From Streptomyces sp. 11x1 (GTDB lineage Bacteria; Actinomycetota; Actinomycetes; Streptomycetales; Streptomycetaceae): a DNA stretch of 64,000 nt. The position numbers and the translations under genes are program-made. The number at the start of each line of letters is the position of its first letter. Position 1 is the stretch's first letter. The notes beneath the pieces were generated by a model. It saw nothing but the letters and a program-made list of their open reading frames with translations. It made no database searches and was not told the origin of the DNA. The DNA lies in contig NZ_CP122458.1 of assembly GCF_032598905.1 (NCBI RefSeq), forward strand, positions 8,519,001 to 8,583,000, read 5' to 3'. Positions 19,552-27,880 of the stretch are shown piece by piece.

Positions 19552-19552
<1 letters not shown>
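19537..19552 (+). promoter_or_regulatory. Possible internal leaderless promoter before scpA
   Basis: TAGCCT at 19537-19542 lies nine bases before ATG 19552, and the gene has no convincing Shine-Dalgarno sequence. It could allow transcription of scpA independent of ParA, producing a near-leaderless message. No good -35 element was seen. Confidence 0.3.
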
Positions 19553-21431
<1,879 letters not shown>

Positions 21432-21435
<4 letters not shown>

Positions 21436-22097
21436 GCGAGGAGACGCCCGAGGGGGCGACCGGGGCGCCCGCGGGGTCGCGTACCGTCGCCGACCTCGGT
21501 CTCAAGCCCGCCCTGGAGGCCGTCCTCATGGTCGTGGACGAGCCCGCGACGGCCGAGCACCTGAGCAAGATCCTGGAGCGGCCGAAGCGGCAGATCTCCA
21601 AGGCGCTGCGTGAGCTGGCCGACGAGTACGCGCTCCAGGGGCGCGGCTTCGAGCTGCGGCTGATCGCCGGGGGCTGGCGGTTCTACACCCGGCCCGAGTA
21701 CGCCGCCGCCGTCGAGCGGTTCGTGCTCGACGGGCAGCAGGCCCGGCTGACCCAGGCCGCGCTGGAGACGCTGGCCGTGGTCGCGTACCGGCAGCCGGTG
21801 AGCCGGAGCAGGGTCTCGGCCGTACGAGGGGTCAACTGCGACGGGGTCATGCGCACCCTGCTGCAGCGGGGTCTGGTCGAGGAGGCGGGCGCGGAACCCG
21901 AAACAGGTGCGATCCTGTACAGGACGACGAACTACTTCCTGGAGCGGATGGGCCTGCGCGGTCTGGACGAGCTCCCGGAGCTCGCGCCCTTCCTCCCGGA
22001 GGCGGAGGCGATCGAGGCCGAGACCCAGGAAGCCGTACCGTCGTTCGATCCGGATGCTCCGGATTCCGAGGACACAGACGACAAGACGGAACTTTGA
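21432..22097 (+). CDS. scpB: Segregation and condensation protein ScpB
   Basis: ScpB dimers bind the ScpA kleisin and complete the SMC-ScpAB complex. The 221-residue protein has two winged-helix domains: [21 protein letters not shown] and [18 protein letters not shown], then [40 protein letters not shown] and the C-terminal [20 protein letters not shown]. Residues after about 195 form an acidic tail. ATG 21432 overlaps the scpA stop by four bases, and the scpB stop overlaps the rluB ATG by one base, so the whole cluster is translationally coupled. Confidence 0.95.
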
Positions 22098-23245
22098 TGC
22101 GAAGCAGCAGCGGCAGGAACAGCAGCGGAAACAACGGCGGGAGCCGTGGTGGCAACAGCGGCGGCCGCGGCGGAAGCGGTGGTGCACGCGGCGGGAGCGG
22201 TGGTGGCGGCGGGGGCCGTGGCAACTACCGCGGTGCGGGGAACGACCGCGACGACAGGCAGGGCGGTCGGCCGAAGAAGCCCCGCCCCGAGGAGCGCCGT
22301 TACGACGTGGGCCCCGGCGGCTCCCCGGACGGTCCCAAGTCCGGGCGCGGCGCCTCGGCGCGCGGCGGGGCCAAGGGCGGACCGAAGCAGTCCCAGCAGC
22401 AGCGCGGGCGGTGGGCCCCGGCGACCTCGCGCGAGTACGACGCGCGCGCCGAGGAGCGCAACCGGGAGCGCTACGCGGGCAAGAAGGACGTCAAGCTGCC
22501 CAAGACCTTCCCGGGCGCCGAGCAGGAGGGCGAGCGGCTGCAGAAGGTCCTCGCGCGCGCGGGCTACGGCTCGCGGCGGGCCTGCGAGGAGCTGATCGAG
22601 CAGGCGCGGGTCGAGGTCAACGGCGAGATCGTCCTGGAGCAGGGCAAGCGCGTCGACCCGGAGAAGGACGAGGTCAAGGTCGACGGTCTGACCGTGGCCA
22701 CGCAGTCGTACCAGTTCTTCGCGCTGAACAAGCCCGCCGGAGTCGTCTCCACCATGGAGGACCCCGAGGGCCGGCAGTGCCTCGGCGACTACGTGACCAA
22801 CCGTGAGACGCGGCTGTTCCACGTCGGTCGGCTCGACACCGAGACCGAGGGCGTCATCCTGCTCACCAACCACGGCGAGCTGGCGCACCGGCTGACCCAC
22901 CCCAAGTACGGCGTCAAGAAGACGTACGTCGCGCACATCGTGGGCCCGATCCCGCGCGACCTGGGCAAGCAGCTCAAGGACGGTATCCAGCTGGAGGACG
23001 GGTACGCGCGTGCGGACCACTTCCGCGTGGTGCAGCAGACCGGCAAGAACTACCTCGTGGAGGTCACCCTCCACGAGGGACGCAAGCACATCGTGCGCCG
23101 GATGCTGGCCGAGGCCGGCTTCCCCGTCGACAAGCTCGTCCGCACCGCCTTCGGGCCGATCTCCCTCGGCGACCAGAAGTCCGGCTGGCTGCGCCGGCTG
23201 TCGAACACCGAGGTCGGGATGCTGATGCAGGAGGTCGACCTGTAG
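22097..23245 (+). CDS. rluB: 23S rRNA pseudouridine synthase RluB-type with Gly-rich N-terminus
   Basis: The 382-residue enzyme isomerises uridine in 23S rRNA. The C-terminal 240 residues carry an S4 domain (LQKVLARAGYGSRRACEELI) and a RsuA/RluB-type catalytic domain with FFALNKPAGVVSTMEDPEG, the nucleophile Asp in HVGRLDTETEGVILLTNHG (residue about 247), KTYVAHIVG and HEGRKHIVRRMLAEAG. The first 110 residues are Gly/Arg/Ser-rich with RGG-like clusters, likely an unstructured RNA-binding tail. It is the last gene of the ParA-scp operon. The 23-bp sequence around the stop codon is duplicated in tandem just downstream. Confidence 0.95.
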   Translation: MRSSSGRNSSGNNGGSRGGNSGGRGGSGGARGGSGGGGGGRGNYRGAGNDRDDRQGGRPKKPRPEERRYDVGPGGSPDGPKSGRGASARGGAKGGPKQSQQQRGRWAPATSREYDARAEERNRERYAGKKDVKLPKTFPGAEQEGERLQKVLARAGYGSRRACEELIEQARVEVNGEIVLEQGKRVDPEKDEVKVDGLTVATQSYQFFALNKPAGVVSTMEDPEGRQCLGDYVTNRETRLFHVGRLDTETEGVILLTNHGELAHRLTHPKYGVKKTYVAHIVGPIPRDLGKQLKDGIQLEDGYARADHFRVVQQTGKNYLVEVTLHEGRKHIVRRMLAEAGFPVDKLVRTAFGPISLGDQKSGWLRRLSNTEVGMLMQEVDL

Positions 23246-23411: not shown

Positions 23412-23441
23412 TTGTGCGCCCGGCGCGCGCGGCTTTATAGT
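23412..23441 (+). promoter_or_regulatory. Promoter of the Nudix-regulator cassette
   Basis: TTGTGC (23412-23417) and TATAGT (23436-23441) are spaced 18 bases. The -10 element lies inside a dyad, so a bound regulator would block initiation. The transcript would start near 23448, close to an AAGGAGG ribosome binding site at 23471-23477. Confidence 0.6.
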
Positions 23442-23471
23442 CGTCATGACTATTAGTCACGGTGACCATTA
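23437..23471 (+). promoter_or_regulatory. Tandem operator-like dyads
   Basis: The pattern TAGTC-N4-TGAC-YATTA occurs twice in direct repeat: TAGTCGTCATGACTATTA at 23438-23455 and TAGTCACGGTGACCATTA at 23454-23471, a period of 16 bases. Each copy has internal dyad symmetry (ATAGTC-N5-GACTAT at 23437-23453; GTCAC-G-GTGAC at 23456-23466). The position over the -10 and start region is that of a repressor operator, most simply for the Nudix regulator encoded just downstream. Confidence 0.65.
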
Positions 23472-23485
23472 AGGAGGCGACGGGC

Positions 23486-24211
23486 ATGACCTCACCCGAG
23501 GGCTACGACAAATACGCCTTCGAACCCTTCGCCGTCACCGTCGACCTGGCCGTCTTCACCGTCCGCGCGGGCACCCTCCAGGTGCTGCTCGTCGAGCGCG
23601 GCCAGGAGCCGTACGCGGGCCGCTGGGCGCTGCCCGGCGGGTTCGTGCTGCCGGACGAGTCCGCGGAGGAGGCCGCCTGGCGGGAACTCGCCGAGGAGAC
23701 CGGCCTCAAGGACGACTCCGGGCTCCACCTGGAGCAGTTGCGGACGTACAGCGAGCCCGGCAGGGATCCCAGGATGCGGGTCGTCACCGTCGCGTTCGCC
23801 GCGCTGCTCCCGGACCCGCCCGTCCCGCACGGCGGAGGCGACGCCGTACAGGCCCAGTGGCTGCGCTTCAACGCCGTCGGGCCGCTCGCCTTCGACCACG
23901 ACCGCATCCTCGCCGACGCCCACGAACGCGTCGGCGCCAAGCTCGAATACACCTGTCTCGCCACCTCCTTCTGCCCGCCCGAGTTCACCCTCGGCGAGCT
24001 GCGGCAGGTCTACGAGACCGTGTGGGGCACACCGCTCGACCGGCCCAACTTCCGGCGCAAGGTGCTGGCCACGCCGGGCTTCGTCGAACAGGTGCCCGGC
24101 GCCGCCCGCCTGACCGGCGGTCGCGGCAAGCCCGCCGCGCTGTACCGCGCGGGTGGGGCCACCGCCCTGCACCCGCCGCTGCTGCGACCCACCACGGAAG
24201 GACGGTCCTGA
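23486..24211 (+). CDS. NrtR-like Nudix-domain transcriptional regulator
   Basis: The 241-residue protein pairs a Nudix domain (residues 1-150) with a C-terminal winged helix, as in NrtR regulators, which sense ADP-ribose and control NAD metabolism. The opening YDKYAFEPFAVTVDLAVFTV is typical of that group. The Nudix box (GGFVLPDESAEEAAWRELAE then ETGL, residues 51-74) has every catalytic residue, so hydrolysis is possible. The C-terminal part includes SFCPPEFTLGELRQVYETVW and LDRPNFRRKVLA, the predicted DNA-binding domain. AAGGAGG is eight bases before ATG 23486. The stop overlaps the next ATG by one base. Autoregulation through the tandem dyads upstream is inferred. Confidence 0.85.
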   Translation: MTSPEGYDKYAFEPFAVTVDLAVFTVRAGTLQVLLVERGQEPYAGRWALPGGFVLPDESAEEAAWRELAEETGLKDDSGLHLEQLRTYSEPGRDPRMRVVTVAFAALLPDPPVPHGGGDAVQAQWLRFNAVGPLAFDHDRILADAHERVGAKLEYTCLATSFCPPEFTLGELRQVYETVWGTPLDRPNFRRKVLATPGFVEQVPGAARLTGGRGKPAALYRAGGATALHPPLLRPTTEGRS

Positions 24212-25233
24212 TGACCATGACGCTCCGCACGAAGCGCTCCGCCACCGGCTCCCTGATCGGACTCGCCCTCGGAGACGCCCTCGGCTTCCCGACGGAGTTC
24301 AACGACGTCCCGTCGATCCTCGCCAAGTGCGGCCCCTGGCGGAAGATGGGGCTGCCGAAGCCGGCTATCGTCACCGACGACACCCAGATGACGCTGGCCC
24401 TGGGGCACGGGCTGCGGGCCGCCATGGACCGGGGATCGCTCGGCCCCGACGCCCTGGTGCGCGCCGTCCGCAAGGAGTTCGTGGACTGGTCCCGCTCCCC
24501 GGAGAACAACCGCGCCCCCGGCAACACCTGCCTGGTCGCCTGCGACCTCCTCGCCGTCGAGCGCCACCCCTGGCAGTTCGCCAGCCAGATCCACTCCAAG
24601 GGCTGCGGCGCCAACATGCGGGTCGCCCCGCTCGGCCTGATCGGCCCGCTCAGCGACGAACAGCGCGCGGGCGCCGCCCAGTTGCAGGCCGCCCTCACCC
24701 ACGGCCACCCCACCGCGCTCGCCGCCTCCGACCTCACCGCCCACGCGATACGGCTGCTCTCCCAGGGCGCCGAACCGATGGGGCTGATCGGCCGGCTGCG
24801 CTCGTACGCGTACGAGAACCGCTCCCGCTACCACGCACGCTGGCTCGGCGACCTGTGGACCTACAGCCAGGACCCCTCGCCCGAGCACTACATCGCGCGG
24901 GGCTGGGACGACTGCCTGGAGGCCCTGGACCGGGTGCAGGCGGCCCTGCGGCTGCCGTCGCCCGAGACCGACCCCTGCCTGGCCACGGGCGAGGGCTGGA
25001 TCGCCGAGGAGGCCCTCGCGACCGGGCTGCTGTGCTTCCTGCTCTTCGTCGACGAGCCCGTCACCGCGCTGCGCCGCGCCGCCTGCACCTCGGGCGACTC
25101 CGACTCCATCGCCTGCCTCGCCGGTGCCTTCGCGGGCGCCTACCACGGCCCGGACGTCTGGCCCGCCGAGTGGGCCGACCGGATCGAGTACCAGGGCGAC
25201 CTCGTCTCGCTGGGAGCCCTCTGGGACGCTTGA
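24211..25233 (+). CDS. ADP-ribosylglycohydrolase family protein (DraG-like)
   Basis: The family removes ADP-ribose from proteins, nucleic acids or small molecules using a binuclear metal site. The 340-residue protein shows the metal-ligand motifs GLALGDALGFPTEF (residues 17-30), IVTDDTQMTLAL (53-64) and CTSGDSDSIACLAGAFAGA (about 292-309), plus GNTCLVA and NMRVAPLGL in the middle. All metal-binding acidic residues expected for DraG/ARH folds are present, so an active hydrolase is likely. GGAAGGA lies eight bases before ATG 24211. Its tight coupling with an ADP-ribose-type sensor on one side and an RlaP-like gene on the other suggests that its substrate is an ADP-ribosylated intermediate; this is inference. 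Confidence 0.9.
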   Translation: MTMTLRTKRSATGSLIGLALGDALGFPTEFNDVPSILAKCGPWRKMGLPKPAIVTDDTQMTLALGHGLRAAMDRGSLGPDALVRAVRKEFVDWSRSPENNRAPGNTCLVACDLLAVERHPWQFASQIHSKGCGANMRVAPLGLIGPLSDEQRAGAAQLQAALTHGHPTALAASDLTAHAIRLLSQGAEPMGLIGRLRSYAYENRSRYHARWLGDLWTYSQDPSPEHYIARGWDDCLEALDRVQAALRLPSPETDPCLATGEGWIAEEALATGLLCFLLFVDEPVTALRRAACTSGDSDSIACLAGAFAGAYHGPDVWPAEWADRIEYQGDLVSLGALWDA

Positions 25234-25236
25234 GGG

Positions 25237-26010
25237 ATGACCGACGCGCTCACCGACGCCCTCGACATCGACCTGGCCCCCGTGGTCGCCGAACAGCCCG
25301 ACCAGGTGCTGTTCGCGACCGTCTCCGGCGCCCACCTGTACGGCTTCCCGTCGCGTGACTCGGACGTGGACCTGCGCGGTGTGCACCTGCTGCCCACGGC
25401 CGAACTGGTCGGGCTGCGGGAGCCGGAGGAGACCCGGTCGCGGATGTGGGACCGGGACGGCGTCGAGATGGACCTCGTCACGCACGACCTGCGCAAGTTC
25501 GCCCGGCTGATGCTGCGCCGCAACGGCTATGTGCTGGAGCAGCTGCTCTCCCCGCTCGTCGTGCACACCGGCGAGGCGCACCGCGAACTGATCGCGCTCG
25601 CCCCCGGGGTCCTCACCCGGCACCACGCCCACCACTACCGGGGGTTCGCCATCACTCAGTGGCGGCTCTTCGAGAAGACCGGCGAACTCAAGCCGCTGCT
25701 CTACACGTTCCGTGTGCTGCTCACCGGCATCCACCTCATGCGCAGCGGCGAGGTGCAGGCCCATCTGCCCACCCTGGTGCCGCAGGTGGACGAGGCGCCC
25801 CGCTATCTGCCGGACCTCGTCGCGGCGAAGGCGGACCTGGAGCACGGCAAGGCCGACGTCGACCGGGAGCGCGTGGCGGAGGACGTCGAGCGGCTCCAAG
25901 AGGTGCTGGAACAGGAGCAGGCGCTTTCGGCGCTCCCGGAGAGCCCGTCCGCGTACGACGCCCTGCACGATTTCGTCGTCCGGGTCCGCGTGGACGGTGT
26001 GAAGGGCTGA
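25237..26010 (+). CDS. RlaP-family (PF10127-like) nucleotidyltransferase, copy 1
   Basis: This 257-residue protein resembles DNA-polymerase-beta-type nucleotidyltransferases of the RlaP group, named for association with RNA ligases. The signature region VSGAHLYGFPSRDSDVDLRG (residues 29-48) has the three acidic positions Asp41, Asp43 and Asp45; the residue that is usually Ser in the G-S pair is Ala32. A helical C-terminal part contains MLRRNGYVLEQLLSPLVV, FAITQWRLFEKTGELKPLLY and the terminal AYDALHDFVVRVRV. It starts three bases after the glycohydrolase stop. Substrate is unknown: addition of nucleotides to RNA or protein is conceivable. Confidence 0.85.
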   Translation: MTDALTDALDIDLAPVVAEQPDQVLFATVSGAHLYGFPSRDSDVDLRGVHLLPTAELVGLREPEETRSRMWDRDGVEMDLVTHDLRKFARLMLRRNGYVLEQLLSPLVVHTGEAHRELIALAPGVLTRHHAHHYRGFAITQWRLFEKTGELKPLLYTFRVLLTGIHLMRSGEVQAHLPTLVPQVDEAPRYLPDLVAAKADLEHGKADVDRERVAEDVERLQEVLEQEQALSALPESPSAYDALHDFVVRVRVDGVKG

Positions 26011-26076
26011 GCCGGCTGCGGGGTCCGGGCCGGTTCCGCGGGCCGAGCCCGTTCCGGGGGTCTGGGGTGATTCCAG

Positions 26077-26104
26077 GGCCCGGGCCGGTCGCTACGCCCG
26101 GGCC
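26077..26104. terminator. Hairpin between the two convergent RlaP-like genes
   Basis: GGCCCGGGC at 26077-26085 pairs perfectly with 26096-26104 around a ten-base loop. It covers the stop codon of the reverse gene (26092-26094) and lies 67 bases after the forward gene, so it can serve both directions. Confidence 0.55.
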
Positions 26105-26832
26105 GTTCCCCAGGTTTTGACCGGCGCCGAGGTCGGGCGGGCGCGCAGGGCCGACGCGTGCCGGGTGCGTACGACGAAGTCCTCGACCCGGGCCCGGTCC
26201 GGCTCCGCCGGCAGCGGGCTGCGGTGCACCGCCTCCTCGGCCTCCGTCGCCAGCCGGGCCATCCAGGACTCGACCTGGGGCCACGCCACCTCGCCGTGCT
26301 TCACCGCCAGCAGAGGCTCGCGCTGATCGCCCACGTCGACGGTGAGCGTGCCCGTGCGCAGCAGATCGCGGCAGCTCATCAGGAGGCGGAGGAGATGCAT
26401 GGCGTGCTTCCAGCGCGGGGCGCCGTGCGTACGGATGTCGGCGTCGAGCTTCTTGCGCTGGCCGAGGGCGTAGCGGGCGAAGGTCTCATGGGTCTGCCGG
26501 GACAGGAACGCCCCGCGCAGCGCGAGCAGTTCCCGGCCGGTGGCGTCGACGTGCTCCACCAGGGGGGAGTGCAGGCACTCCAGGATGTTCGGGTTGGCGC
26601 GCAGGGCCAGACTGCAGAAGCGCTCCAGCTCCCAGCCGAACTGCTCCTCCGCGGGACCCTCCACATGGGTCGGCGGCTTCTCGAAGCGCCAGAACAGCTC
26701 GGTCGGGGCCAGGAAGACGCCCCGCCGGTCGGTGTCGCTGTCGTCCGTCGCGAGACCGAAGGCCCGCGACCCCATCACACAGGCGTAGATCGTGTGATCA
26801 CGGACCAGGCTGTGCGGGTGCGGGGGCTGCAT
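26092..26832 (-). CDS. RlaP-family (PF10127-like) nucleotidyltransferase, copy 2
   Basis: The 246-residue protein faces copy 1 and is a clear paralog in architecture. Its signature ACVMGSRAFGLATDDSDTDR (residues 17-36) includes the intact Gly21-Ser22 pair and acidic Asp31, Asp33, Asp35. Later segments LERFCSLALRANPNILECLH, LFRR-free helical HAMHLLRLLMSCRDLLRTG and ARVEDFVVRTRH parallel copy 1. Because this copy has the canonical Ser while copy 1 does not, the two may have diverged in activity. The start is ATG ending at 26832. It runs toward copy 1 and away from the Rieske gene promoter. Confidence 0.86.
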   Translation of the reverse strand: MQPPHPHSLVRDHTIYACVMGSRAFGLATDDSDTDRRGVFLAPTELFWRFEKPPTHVEGPAEEQFGWELERFCSLALRANPNILECLHSPLVEHVDATGRELLALRGAFLSRQTHETFARYALGQRKKLDADIRTHGAPRWKHAMHLLRLLMSCRDLLRTGTLTVDVGDQREPLLAVKHGEVAWPQVESWMARLATEAEEAVHRSPLPAEPDRARVEDFVVRTRHASALRARPTSAPVKTWGTARA

Positions 26833-26854: not shown

Positions 26855-27283
26855 TCAGACCGACTGAATCGAATTTCCCGAGACCTCGATCTCCTCGGCG
26901 GGCAGGGGCTGGGTGGCCGGGCCCCGCACCACCGCGCCGTCCGTGATCTTGAACTTGCTGCCGTGGCAGGCGCAGTCGATCGTCCCGTCCGAGACGCTGC
27001 TGACGATGCAGCCCTGGTGCGTGCAGACCGCCGAGAAGGCCTTGAACTCGCCCTCCTGCGGCTGCGTCACGACGATCTTCCGATCCTTGAAGATCCTGCC
27101 GCCGCCCACCGGGATGTCGGCCGTGGTGGCCAGCTCCTCATCGCCACCGCCCGTGCCCGCGTCCCCGGGTGAGGTCTCCTCCTGGGAACCGCCGTCGCTG
27201 TCGCCGCCGCACCCCACCAGGAGCGCCGCCGTGCCTGCCGCGCCGGTCGTGAGCACCGTGCGCCGCGTCGAACCCATCGCCAT
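26855..27283 (-). CDS. Rieske [2Fe-2S] lipoprotein with twin-arginine signal
   Basis: The 142-residue protein starts with a short Tat-type signal (MGSTRRTVLTTGAAGTAALL) ending in a lipobox LVGC with Cys25, so it is predicted to be exported folded and lipid-anchored. After a Gly/Asp-rich linker the Rieske fold contains both cluster-binding pairs, VCTHQGC and CACHGSKF. The ATG ending at 27283 has GGAG seven bases upstream; the frame extends further upstream without homology. It is a stand-alone electron-transfer protein with no oxygenase or bc1 subunits nearby, so its partner is unknown. Confidence 0.9.
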   Translation of the reverse strand: MAMGSTRRTVLTTGAAGTAALLVGCGGDSDGGSQEETSPGDAGTGGGDEELATTADIPVGGGRIFKDRKIVVTQPQEGEFKAFSAVCTHQGCIVSSVSDGTIDCACHGSKFKITDGAVVRGPATQPLPAEEIEVSGNSIQSV

Positions 27284-27517: not shown

Positions 27518-27880
27518 GTGGCGGTACGAGCGGTCCGGGGCGCCGTCCAGCTCGAACGGGACGAGGCGGGGCACATGGACGAGCAGGTGGGCGAACTGCT
27601 CACCGCGGTCCTGGAGCGCAACGGGCTCGGTCCGGACGACCTGATCAGCATCTGGTTCACGGCCACCCCCGACCTGCACAGCGACTTCCCGGCCGCCGCG
27701 GCGCGCAAGCTCGGCATCGTCGAGGTCCCCCTGATCTGCGCGCAGGAACTGGACATCGAGGGCGCCATGCCCCGGGTCGTACGGATCCTCGCGCACATCG
27801 AGTCCGACCGGCCGCGCTCCGAGATCGCGCACGTCTACCTGGGCGCCGCGGCCGCGCTCCGCAAGGACATCGCCCAGTGA
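27518..27880 (+). CDS. aroH: Monofunctional chorismate mutase, AroH class
   Basis: AroH-class mutases convert chorismate to prephenate. The 120-residue size and sequence are typical: VRAVRGAVQLERDEAGHMDE at the N-terminus, LISIWFTATPDLHSDFPAAA, VPLICAQELDIEGAMPRVVR and the closing HVYLGAAAALRKD with the Arg/Lys active-site residues. The GTG at 27518 has an AGGAG-like site at about 27506. The stop overlaps the tyrA GTG by four bases (GTGA), so the two consecutive steps toward tyrosine are coupled. Confidence 0.95.
   Translation: MAVRAVRGAVQLERDEAGHMDEQVGELLTAVLERNGLGPDDLISIWFTATPDLHSDFPAAAARKLGIVEVPLICAQELDIEGAMPRVVRILAHIESDRPRSEIAHVYLGAAAALRKDIAQ

Follow-up and report, generated by a model that had tools for sequence, protein, structure and literature searches.

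An NrtR-type repressor, a DraG-like ADP-ribosylglycohydrolase and two RlaP nucleotidyltransferases in a conserved Streptomyces slot, tentatively read as a trimmed NAD-recovery operon

In a window of 64,000 nucleotides of Streptomyces sp. 11x1 (NCBI RefSeq assembly GCF_032598905.1, contig NZ_CP122458.1, positions 8,519,001 to 8,583,000; window coordinates are used below), positions 23,412 to 26,832 hold a cassette of four genes encoding an NrtR-type Nudix repressor, an ADP-ribosylglycohydrolase (ARH) of the DraG/ARH type and two RlaP-family nucleotidyltransferases (RlaP1 and RlaP2). The cassette occupies one chromosomal slot across the genus, is preceded by a conserved palindrome lying on a –10-like box, and is extended in part of the genus by pnuC and nadR-like genes of nicotinamide adenine dinucleotide (NAD) salvage. 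With a probability of about 0.48, we read it as a trimmed form of an operon for NAD recovery and de-ADP-ribosylation under the control of an NrtR-type repressor.

The product of the first gene (23462–24211, + strand) combined an N-terminal Nudix domain (PF00293, 76.9 bits) with a C-terminal NrtR winged helix (NrtR_WHD, PF21906, 57.2 bits), both above the curated Pfam cut-offs and in the order that defines the NrtR regulator architecture. Because it stayed below the cut-off of the NCBIfam NtrR equivalog (NF050029; 130 bits vs. 400), we consider it a protein of the same kind, but not that equivalog. The nearest solved structures were 5bs6 (AraR) and 3gz5, which we take to be SoNrtR. The intact Nudix box announced by an earlier, sequence-only reading of this DNA was recovered, with the signature GX5EX7REUXEEXGU kept in 41/41 full-length orthologues, and on the strength of this box the repressor may also destroy its own inducer. 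In three of four regions inspected, the other NrtR-type protein of these genomes had an intact box as well, and inducer destruction by the repressor would therefore not be unique to the cassette. Judging from the AAGGAGG stretch at 23471–23477, ATG 23486 is a more likely start of the gene than GTG 23462.

The stop codon of this gene and the start codon of the ARH gene (24211–25233, +) have one base in common (TGATG). The ARH matched ADP_ribosyl_GH (PF03747) with 217.5 bits, above the curated cut-off, and had DraG (2woe) as its nearest solved structure; the metal motifs ascribed to it earlier proved firm, with residues G21, D22, P27, E29, D56, D57, T58, G295, D296, S297 and D298 invariant in 51/51 sequences. 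The NCBIfam cut-offs for DraG (TIGR02662; 69.6 vs. 337) and Tri1 (NF041672; 60.7 vs. 490) were not reached, placing the protein in the same fold family but in neither equivalog. After a gap of 3 nt follows RlaP1 (25237–26010, +), a Pol-beta-type nucleotidyltransferase with a helical C-terminal domain (PF10127, 178.4 bits), and 81 nt further lies the convergent RlaP2 gene (26092–26832, –; PF10127, 125.9 bits); both scores are well above the curated cut-off of 23, so that the two convergent RlaP genes were correctly called. The four genes had also been described as packed with overlaps, of which the tight packing stands, but the overlap is confined to the first two genes and RlaP2 lies apart. 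The co-transcribed set is probably Nudix-ARH-RlaP1. Because RlaP2 starts 22 nt downstream of a same-strand gene for a Rieske [2Fe-2S] protein (26855–27283, –; PF00355, start as given by the gene caller), it probably shares a separate transcript with the Rieske gene.

Ahead of the operon lies the palindrome TTTATAGTC-N5-GACTATWAA, a putative operator on the –10-like TATAGT. Its first copy in the window (operator 1, TTTATAGTC-N5-GACTATTAG; 23434–23456, +) overlaps this TATAGT (23436–23441) and is followed by a second tandem copy (operator 2, TAGTC-N5-GACCA; 23454–23468, +), an arrangement found in several relatives too. The TTGTGC at 23412–23417 (+), separated from TATAGT by an 18-nt spacer, is –35-like by resemblance only. 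The putative operator was present at 48/51 ARH-bearing loci, compared to 0/51 reversed stretches and 0/51 downstream stretches of equal length, using an identical match rule (6 or more of the 10 flank letters) for both controls; these counts are not independent, since the loci share ancestry. The three loci lacking it were L063 and L080, which have no local Nudix gene, and L082, at a contig edge. At all loci with nadR (20/20), it heads the longer operon, 1.2–1.9 kb before the called Nudix start. A looser form of the pattern matched 7 times within the window (shuffle mean 5.4) and thus showed no excess over expectation, so it is conservation that argues for the operator. Allowing at most two mismatches, one further place was found in the strain's own genome (5172702; G000:C1:5172702-5172720; L161, L243), and since the backwards control also returned one match, it may be a chance occurrence.

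Loci that have lost or never had a local Nudix gene were informative in this respect, as 8/10 of such ARH loci keep the operator. GTC is preceded by A at 37/40 loci that have a local Nudix gene and at 0/8 that lack one (T or C instead), and in the latter the letters are nearer to the site that accompanies the other, presumably housekeeping, NrtR-type gene of the same genome. That site reads TTTATC-GTC-N5-GAC-GACTAT in three genomes; in the fourth region, around the second NrtR-type gene of genome G025, no such site was seen. The operator at Nudix-less loci therefore resembles the site of the other NrtR-type gene, which amounts to a natural experiment and predicts that control has been handed over to the other NrtR-type regulator.

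The linkage of these genes is not random, and the occupation of the same slot by orthologous sets across the genus indicates that the cassette is more than a chance assembly. In most fetched loci it lies between rluB and Rieske/aroH/tyrA; in the window, these borders are an rluB-type pseudouridine synthase gene (22094–23245, +; PF00849 plus S4, gene caller start 22307), a conserved border, and the chorismate mutase gene aroH (27518–27880, +; TIGR01796, above cut-off). Among 61 Streptomyces genomes, PF10127 was found in 54 and the orthologous ARH in 50, counting two partial copies. The layouts comprised Nudix-ARH-RlaP1 with convergent RlaP2 (23 genomes, including two with an RlaP1 remnant only and one with a broken RlaP2), the same with a split RlaP1 (1), Nudix-ARH-RlaP2 (10), ARH-RlaP1-RlaP2 (5), ARH-RlaP2 (3), Nudix-ARH (4), ARH by itself (4) and no ARH (11). 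The closest named RlaP1 proteins and loci belong to Streptomyces of the S. scabiei group, and 80 named loci, picked by RlaP1 closeness and with flanks of 4 kb at most, contained ARH in 78, Nudix in 65 and RlaP2 in 79 cases. The proposed tie between an ADP-ribose-type sensor-repressor and an ADP-ribosyl hydrolase is thereby borne out at the level of conserved operon neighbours and predicted functions. More widely, PF10127 occurred in 21/296 Actinomycetota genomes, eight of those 21 being Streptomyces; 12 loci were fetched from the 13 other genomes, and neighbours were scanned in some.

When genes were called in 54 slots (51 taken from the 61 genomes and three from other genomes), two genes recurred between rluB and the Nudix gene, namely pnuC and a nadR-like gene. 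PnuC matched PF04973 (202 bits) and TIGR01528 (103 bits, above cut-off); the NadR-like protein matched AAA_28 (99.5 bits) and stayed below the cut-off of TIGR01526 (182 bits vs. 341). NadR was encoded in 20/54 slots and PnuC in 19/54, in the order pnuC-nadR-nrtR-ARH-rlaP1, and with script-chosen starts the typical gap was –4 nt (PnuC-NadR 18/19, NadR-Nudix 17/20, Nudix-ARH 32/41). Genome-wide, nadR was present in 22/61 genomes, of which 20 carried it in the slot, one (G024) beside another NrtR-type gene and one (G043) elsewhere; the G024 copy (G024:C23:82783-84536) is a second nadR that adjoins an NrtR-type gene outside the slot. Both this linkage and the operator palindrome had been overlooked in the sequence-only reading. 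On a quick tree of 49 loci, state changes numbered 3 for NadR, 5 for Nudix, 2 for ARH, 19 for RlaP1 and 8 for RlaP2; the root was not inferred and the tree does not distinguish gains from losses, so that "trimmed" is our own reading of the direction.

Pol-beta nucleotidyltransferases carry a Gly-Ser motif and three Asp carboxylates. Excluding twelve partial or broken copies, the carboxylates D43, D45 and D79 of RlaP1 were kept in 31/31 sequences, and D33 and D35 of RlaP2 in 50/50, with Glu63 (50/50) aligning with the Asp79 column of RlaP1. The D-x-D is thus kept in both proteins, and RlaP1 has Gly-Ala where Gly-Ser is expected (31/31). Proteins falling outside PF10127, with unrelated active sites, had been named beforehand as grounds to give up the proposed module, as had random linkage; instead, both RlaPs lie inside the family with their carboxylates preserved. 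RlaP1 is acidic (mean isoelectric point 5.67, mean charge –10.7), as is the ARH, and RlaP2 is near neutral (–1.1); the acidity of RlaP1 is a weak argument against an RNA substrate. A stretch from R159 to H166 in RlaP1 that resembles HEPN RNase motifs was set aside, R159 being invariant across the aligned family, where it may serve nucleotide binding. A sequence search against solved structures returned no credible relative of the RlaPs.

Intact RlaP1 was present in 30/61 genomes, 29 of which have RlaP2, compared to 19/31 genomes without RlaP1 (Fisher P = 0.0011). The sole exception (G028) carries a broken RlaP2. The tree offered 12 independent pairs, in about 5 of which RlaP2 changed in the same direction as RlaP1 and in none in the opposite one. 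RlaP2 was also associated with full-length ARH (42/48 vs. 6/13, P = 0.0036). Partial or broken copies were found in place for both RlaP1 (L062, L066, L083, L096, L101, L127) and RlaP2 (L076, L082, L096, L129), which suggests repeated decay. In genome G035 (L088), an RlaP2 and an RlaP1 gene located outside the slot overlap by 4 nt and are oriented divergently to the gene of an ARH belonging to a different subfamily. This type of ARH occurs in 88/199 genomes; among 30 of its loci, fetched with 1.5 kb flanks, the one in G035 alone had an adjacent RlaP, so that this relinkage is a single case.

Taken as a trimmed NAD-recovery operon, the cassette might work as follows. The Nudix protein would bind the operator that covers the –10 box, keeping the operon repressed until NAD consumption by ADP-ribosyltransferases or NADases sets in, upon which ADP-ribose would rise and release the repressor. 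We infer this ligand and direction of control from NrtR of Mycobacterium smegmatis, whose DNA binding is reported to be disrupted by ADP-ribose (PMC6800001). Since the intact Nudix box may cleave ADP-ribose, the switch could reset itself. The derepressed operon would produce RlaP1 and the ARH, which is predicted to strip ADP-ribosyl groups from modified molecules, and in some relatives also PnuC and NadR, which would take up nicotinamide riboside and restore NAD from it. RlaP1, together with RlaP2 from its separate transcript, would transfer a nucleotide, the substrate most likely being either the end of a nucleic acid or some nucleotide-like molecule that the same attack has damaged or set free.

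Several observations weigh against this interpretation. No nadR match was found in the window's own genome at E 1e-20, and pnuC or nadR occurred in 0/80 of the closest named RlaP1 loci, so that the link to NAD salvage derives from another part of the genus. The three state changes of NadR are few, and RlaP1 is not tied to nadR, being intact in 12/20 slots with and 16/34 slots without it, while the tree provided only 2–3 independent nadR-RlaP1 pairs with no trend. The slot showed no ADP-ribosyltransferase. The association between RlaP1 and RlaP2 weakened to a median P of 0.06 after tree correction, RlaP2 probably belongs to a separate transcript, and the association of RlaP1 with full-length ARH fell short of significance (27/30 vs. 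21/31, P = 0.059), with three of the 30 RlaP1 genomes lacking a full-length orthologous ARH. Finally, the frequent loss or breakage of RlaP1, visible in its 19 state changes, implies that this protein is dispensable.

The earlier proposal of a reduced RNA-repair module that has lost its ligase was not upheld in that form. It was correct that the window's slot contains no ligase, but the genome does encode RtcB (searched for in this genome only) and two PF09414 matches elsewhere, so a ligase acting in trans is possible. We therefore weighed a module for RNA- or DNA-end repair in which the ARH would clear ends of ADP-ribose, the RlaPs would restore lost nucleotides and sealing would fall to RtcB or to an RNA ligase encoded elsewhere, and we regard it as unlikely. 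End repair is brought within reach by a non-Streptomyces actinobacterium (G084; L117, 5318–10250), in which hen1, pnkp and an RlaP gene follow each other in a row, the pnkp stop and RlaP start overlapping by one base (TGATG). The same Pfam search that found both hen1 and pnkp there did not find them linked in the window's slot, and no ligase, kinase or end-healing family was seen among the window's slot genes and the representatives of 20/21 extra-gene clusters from the 54 slots (three clusters had no Pfam match, and the 21st is an RlaP1 remnant). In jumbo phages, the distribution of RlaP is described as mirroring that of RNA ligases (PMC7824862), and SCO5809, a different ARH gene of S. coelicolor, is reported to act on ADP-ribosylated RNA (PMC11833690). 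Across the genomes, however, PF09414 ligases showed no significant association with RlaP1 (14/30 genomes with vs. 9/31 without it, P = 0.19), counting matches above 50 bits and setting aside those of 22–48 bits, many of which we judged to be possibly DNA ligases. What some relatives, though not the window's own genome, link to the cassette is NAD salvage, with nadR (20/54 slots, pnuC in 19) heading the operon, and the acidity of RlaP1 and ARH is a further, weak argument against end repair.

A defence role would have the Nudix protein sense ADP-ribose from an invader's modification and the ARH reverse it, with the RlaPs as variable accessory effectors of an anti-phage or anti-toxin system. Such systems were predicted in a 2022 survey as ARG-centred and Nudix-repressed, countering viral ADP-ribosylation (PMC9503650, section 3.8), and they share with our cassette an ARG/ARH with a Nudix-HTH repressor, the lack of a linked ADP-ribosyltransferase and an occurrence in actinobacteria. 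The partners given there (phosphatase, chaperone, ARPP and restriction endonuclease, frequent but not universal) were not seen among the slot genes scanned here (representatives of 20/21 clusters, three of them with no Pfam match), PADLOC offered no model for the ARH or the RlaPs and a single weak match for the Nudix protein (26.7 bits), and the slot is fixed between core genes; a defence system thus seems improbable to us. Only marginally more doubtful is an ordinary NAD-turnover operon, in which ARH and Nudix protein would recycle free ADP-ribosyl compounds and the RlaPs would be small-molecule enzymes of the aminoglycoside-nucleotidyltransferase type, loosely attached and serving an unrelated purpose. 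Against this speak the tracking of RlaP2 by RlaP1 and the RlaP2-RlaP1 pair beside another ARH subfamily in G035, one case as it is. As to the RlaPs themselves, it is a rather remote prospect that they form a two-protein nucleotidyltransferase using ADP-ribose, NAD or some other NAD-derived nucleotide as substrate, or making a short oligonucleotide signal. The Hailong nucleotidyltransferase HalB reportedly makes a signal of the latter kind; identity to it was 10–12%, and Foldseek by itself returned no match at E ≤ 0.001 for RlaP2. If true, this would add a Pol-beta-fold step to NAD recovery after an ADP-ribosylation attack, and the RlaP name, which refers to RNA repair, would be misleading for this clade.

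Our preferred reading of a trimmed NAD-recovery operon places the cassette near the NrtR regulons of NAD metabolism, such as that of M. smegmatis NrtR with nadABC: it has in common with these the Nudix and NrtR winged-helix domains, a palindrome in its own promoter and, in some relatives, pnuC and nadR in the operon, to which it adds ARH and RlaP. The operator differs, being TTTATAGTC-N5-GACTAT here and GTTTTCGA-N7-TCGAAAAC in the mycobacterial description (PMC6800001), and so does the Nudix box, which is intact here but has three changes in M. smegmatis NrtR, reported there to be without detected activity (PMC6800001). From DraG/ARH glycohydrolases, with which it shares PF03747 and the kept metal motifs, the cassette differs in having no DraT-like partner in sight. 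Compared to the hen1-pnkp-RlaP row of G084, PF10127 and the D-x-D are common, whereas the cassette has no linked ligase, Pnkp or Hen1, contains two paralogues, and shows Gly-Ala in RlaP1 and Glu as third carboxylate in RlaP2. Judged from its section 3.8, the ARG-centred prediction of PMC9503650 is the closest published idea, and the word RlaP is absent from the main text of that survey. No study of the operon was found in the open-licence literature, and the literature on NrtR regulons may already note a linkage of the regulator to ARH or pnuC-nadR in Streptomyces. The locus ties an uncharacterised DraG homologue to an NrtR-type repressor, an RlaP pair and, in part of the genus, NAD re-synthesis. 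Judging by gene order, the S. coelicolor gene SCO1766 may be the orthologue of the ARH gene described here. SCO1766 figures in the literature as a DraG homologue yet to be characterised (PMC5087735, PMC9411070), and the number of ADP-ribosyl hydrolases reported for S. coelicolor far exceeds that of its known transferases (PMC9411070), so the cassette bears on what calls these many hydrolases into action.

A few further observations were made along the way. Distant relatives of RlaP1 (below 60% identity) were present in 93 phage records, Streptomyces and Gordonia phages among them. In genome G109 (L115), about 5 kb separate an ARH gene from an RlaP gene, a distance that we did not count as linkage. 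No Pfam match was obtained for the large open frames next to RlaP in L118, L119 and L121, which were discarded as probable wrong-frame artefacts of high G+C content. Elsewhere in the window (19552–20700), long low-complexity repeats rich in Glu, Pro and Arg precede the ScpA-like part of an scpA-like frame, for which the gene caller placed the start at 20704.

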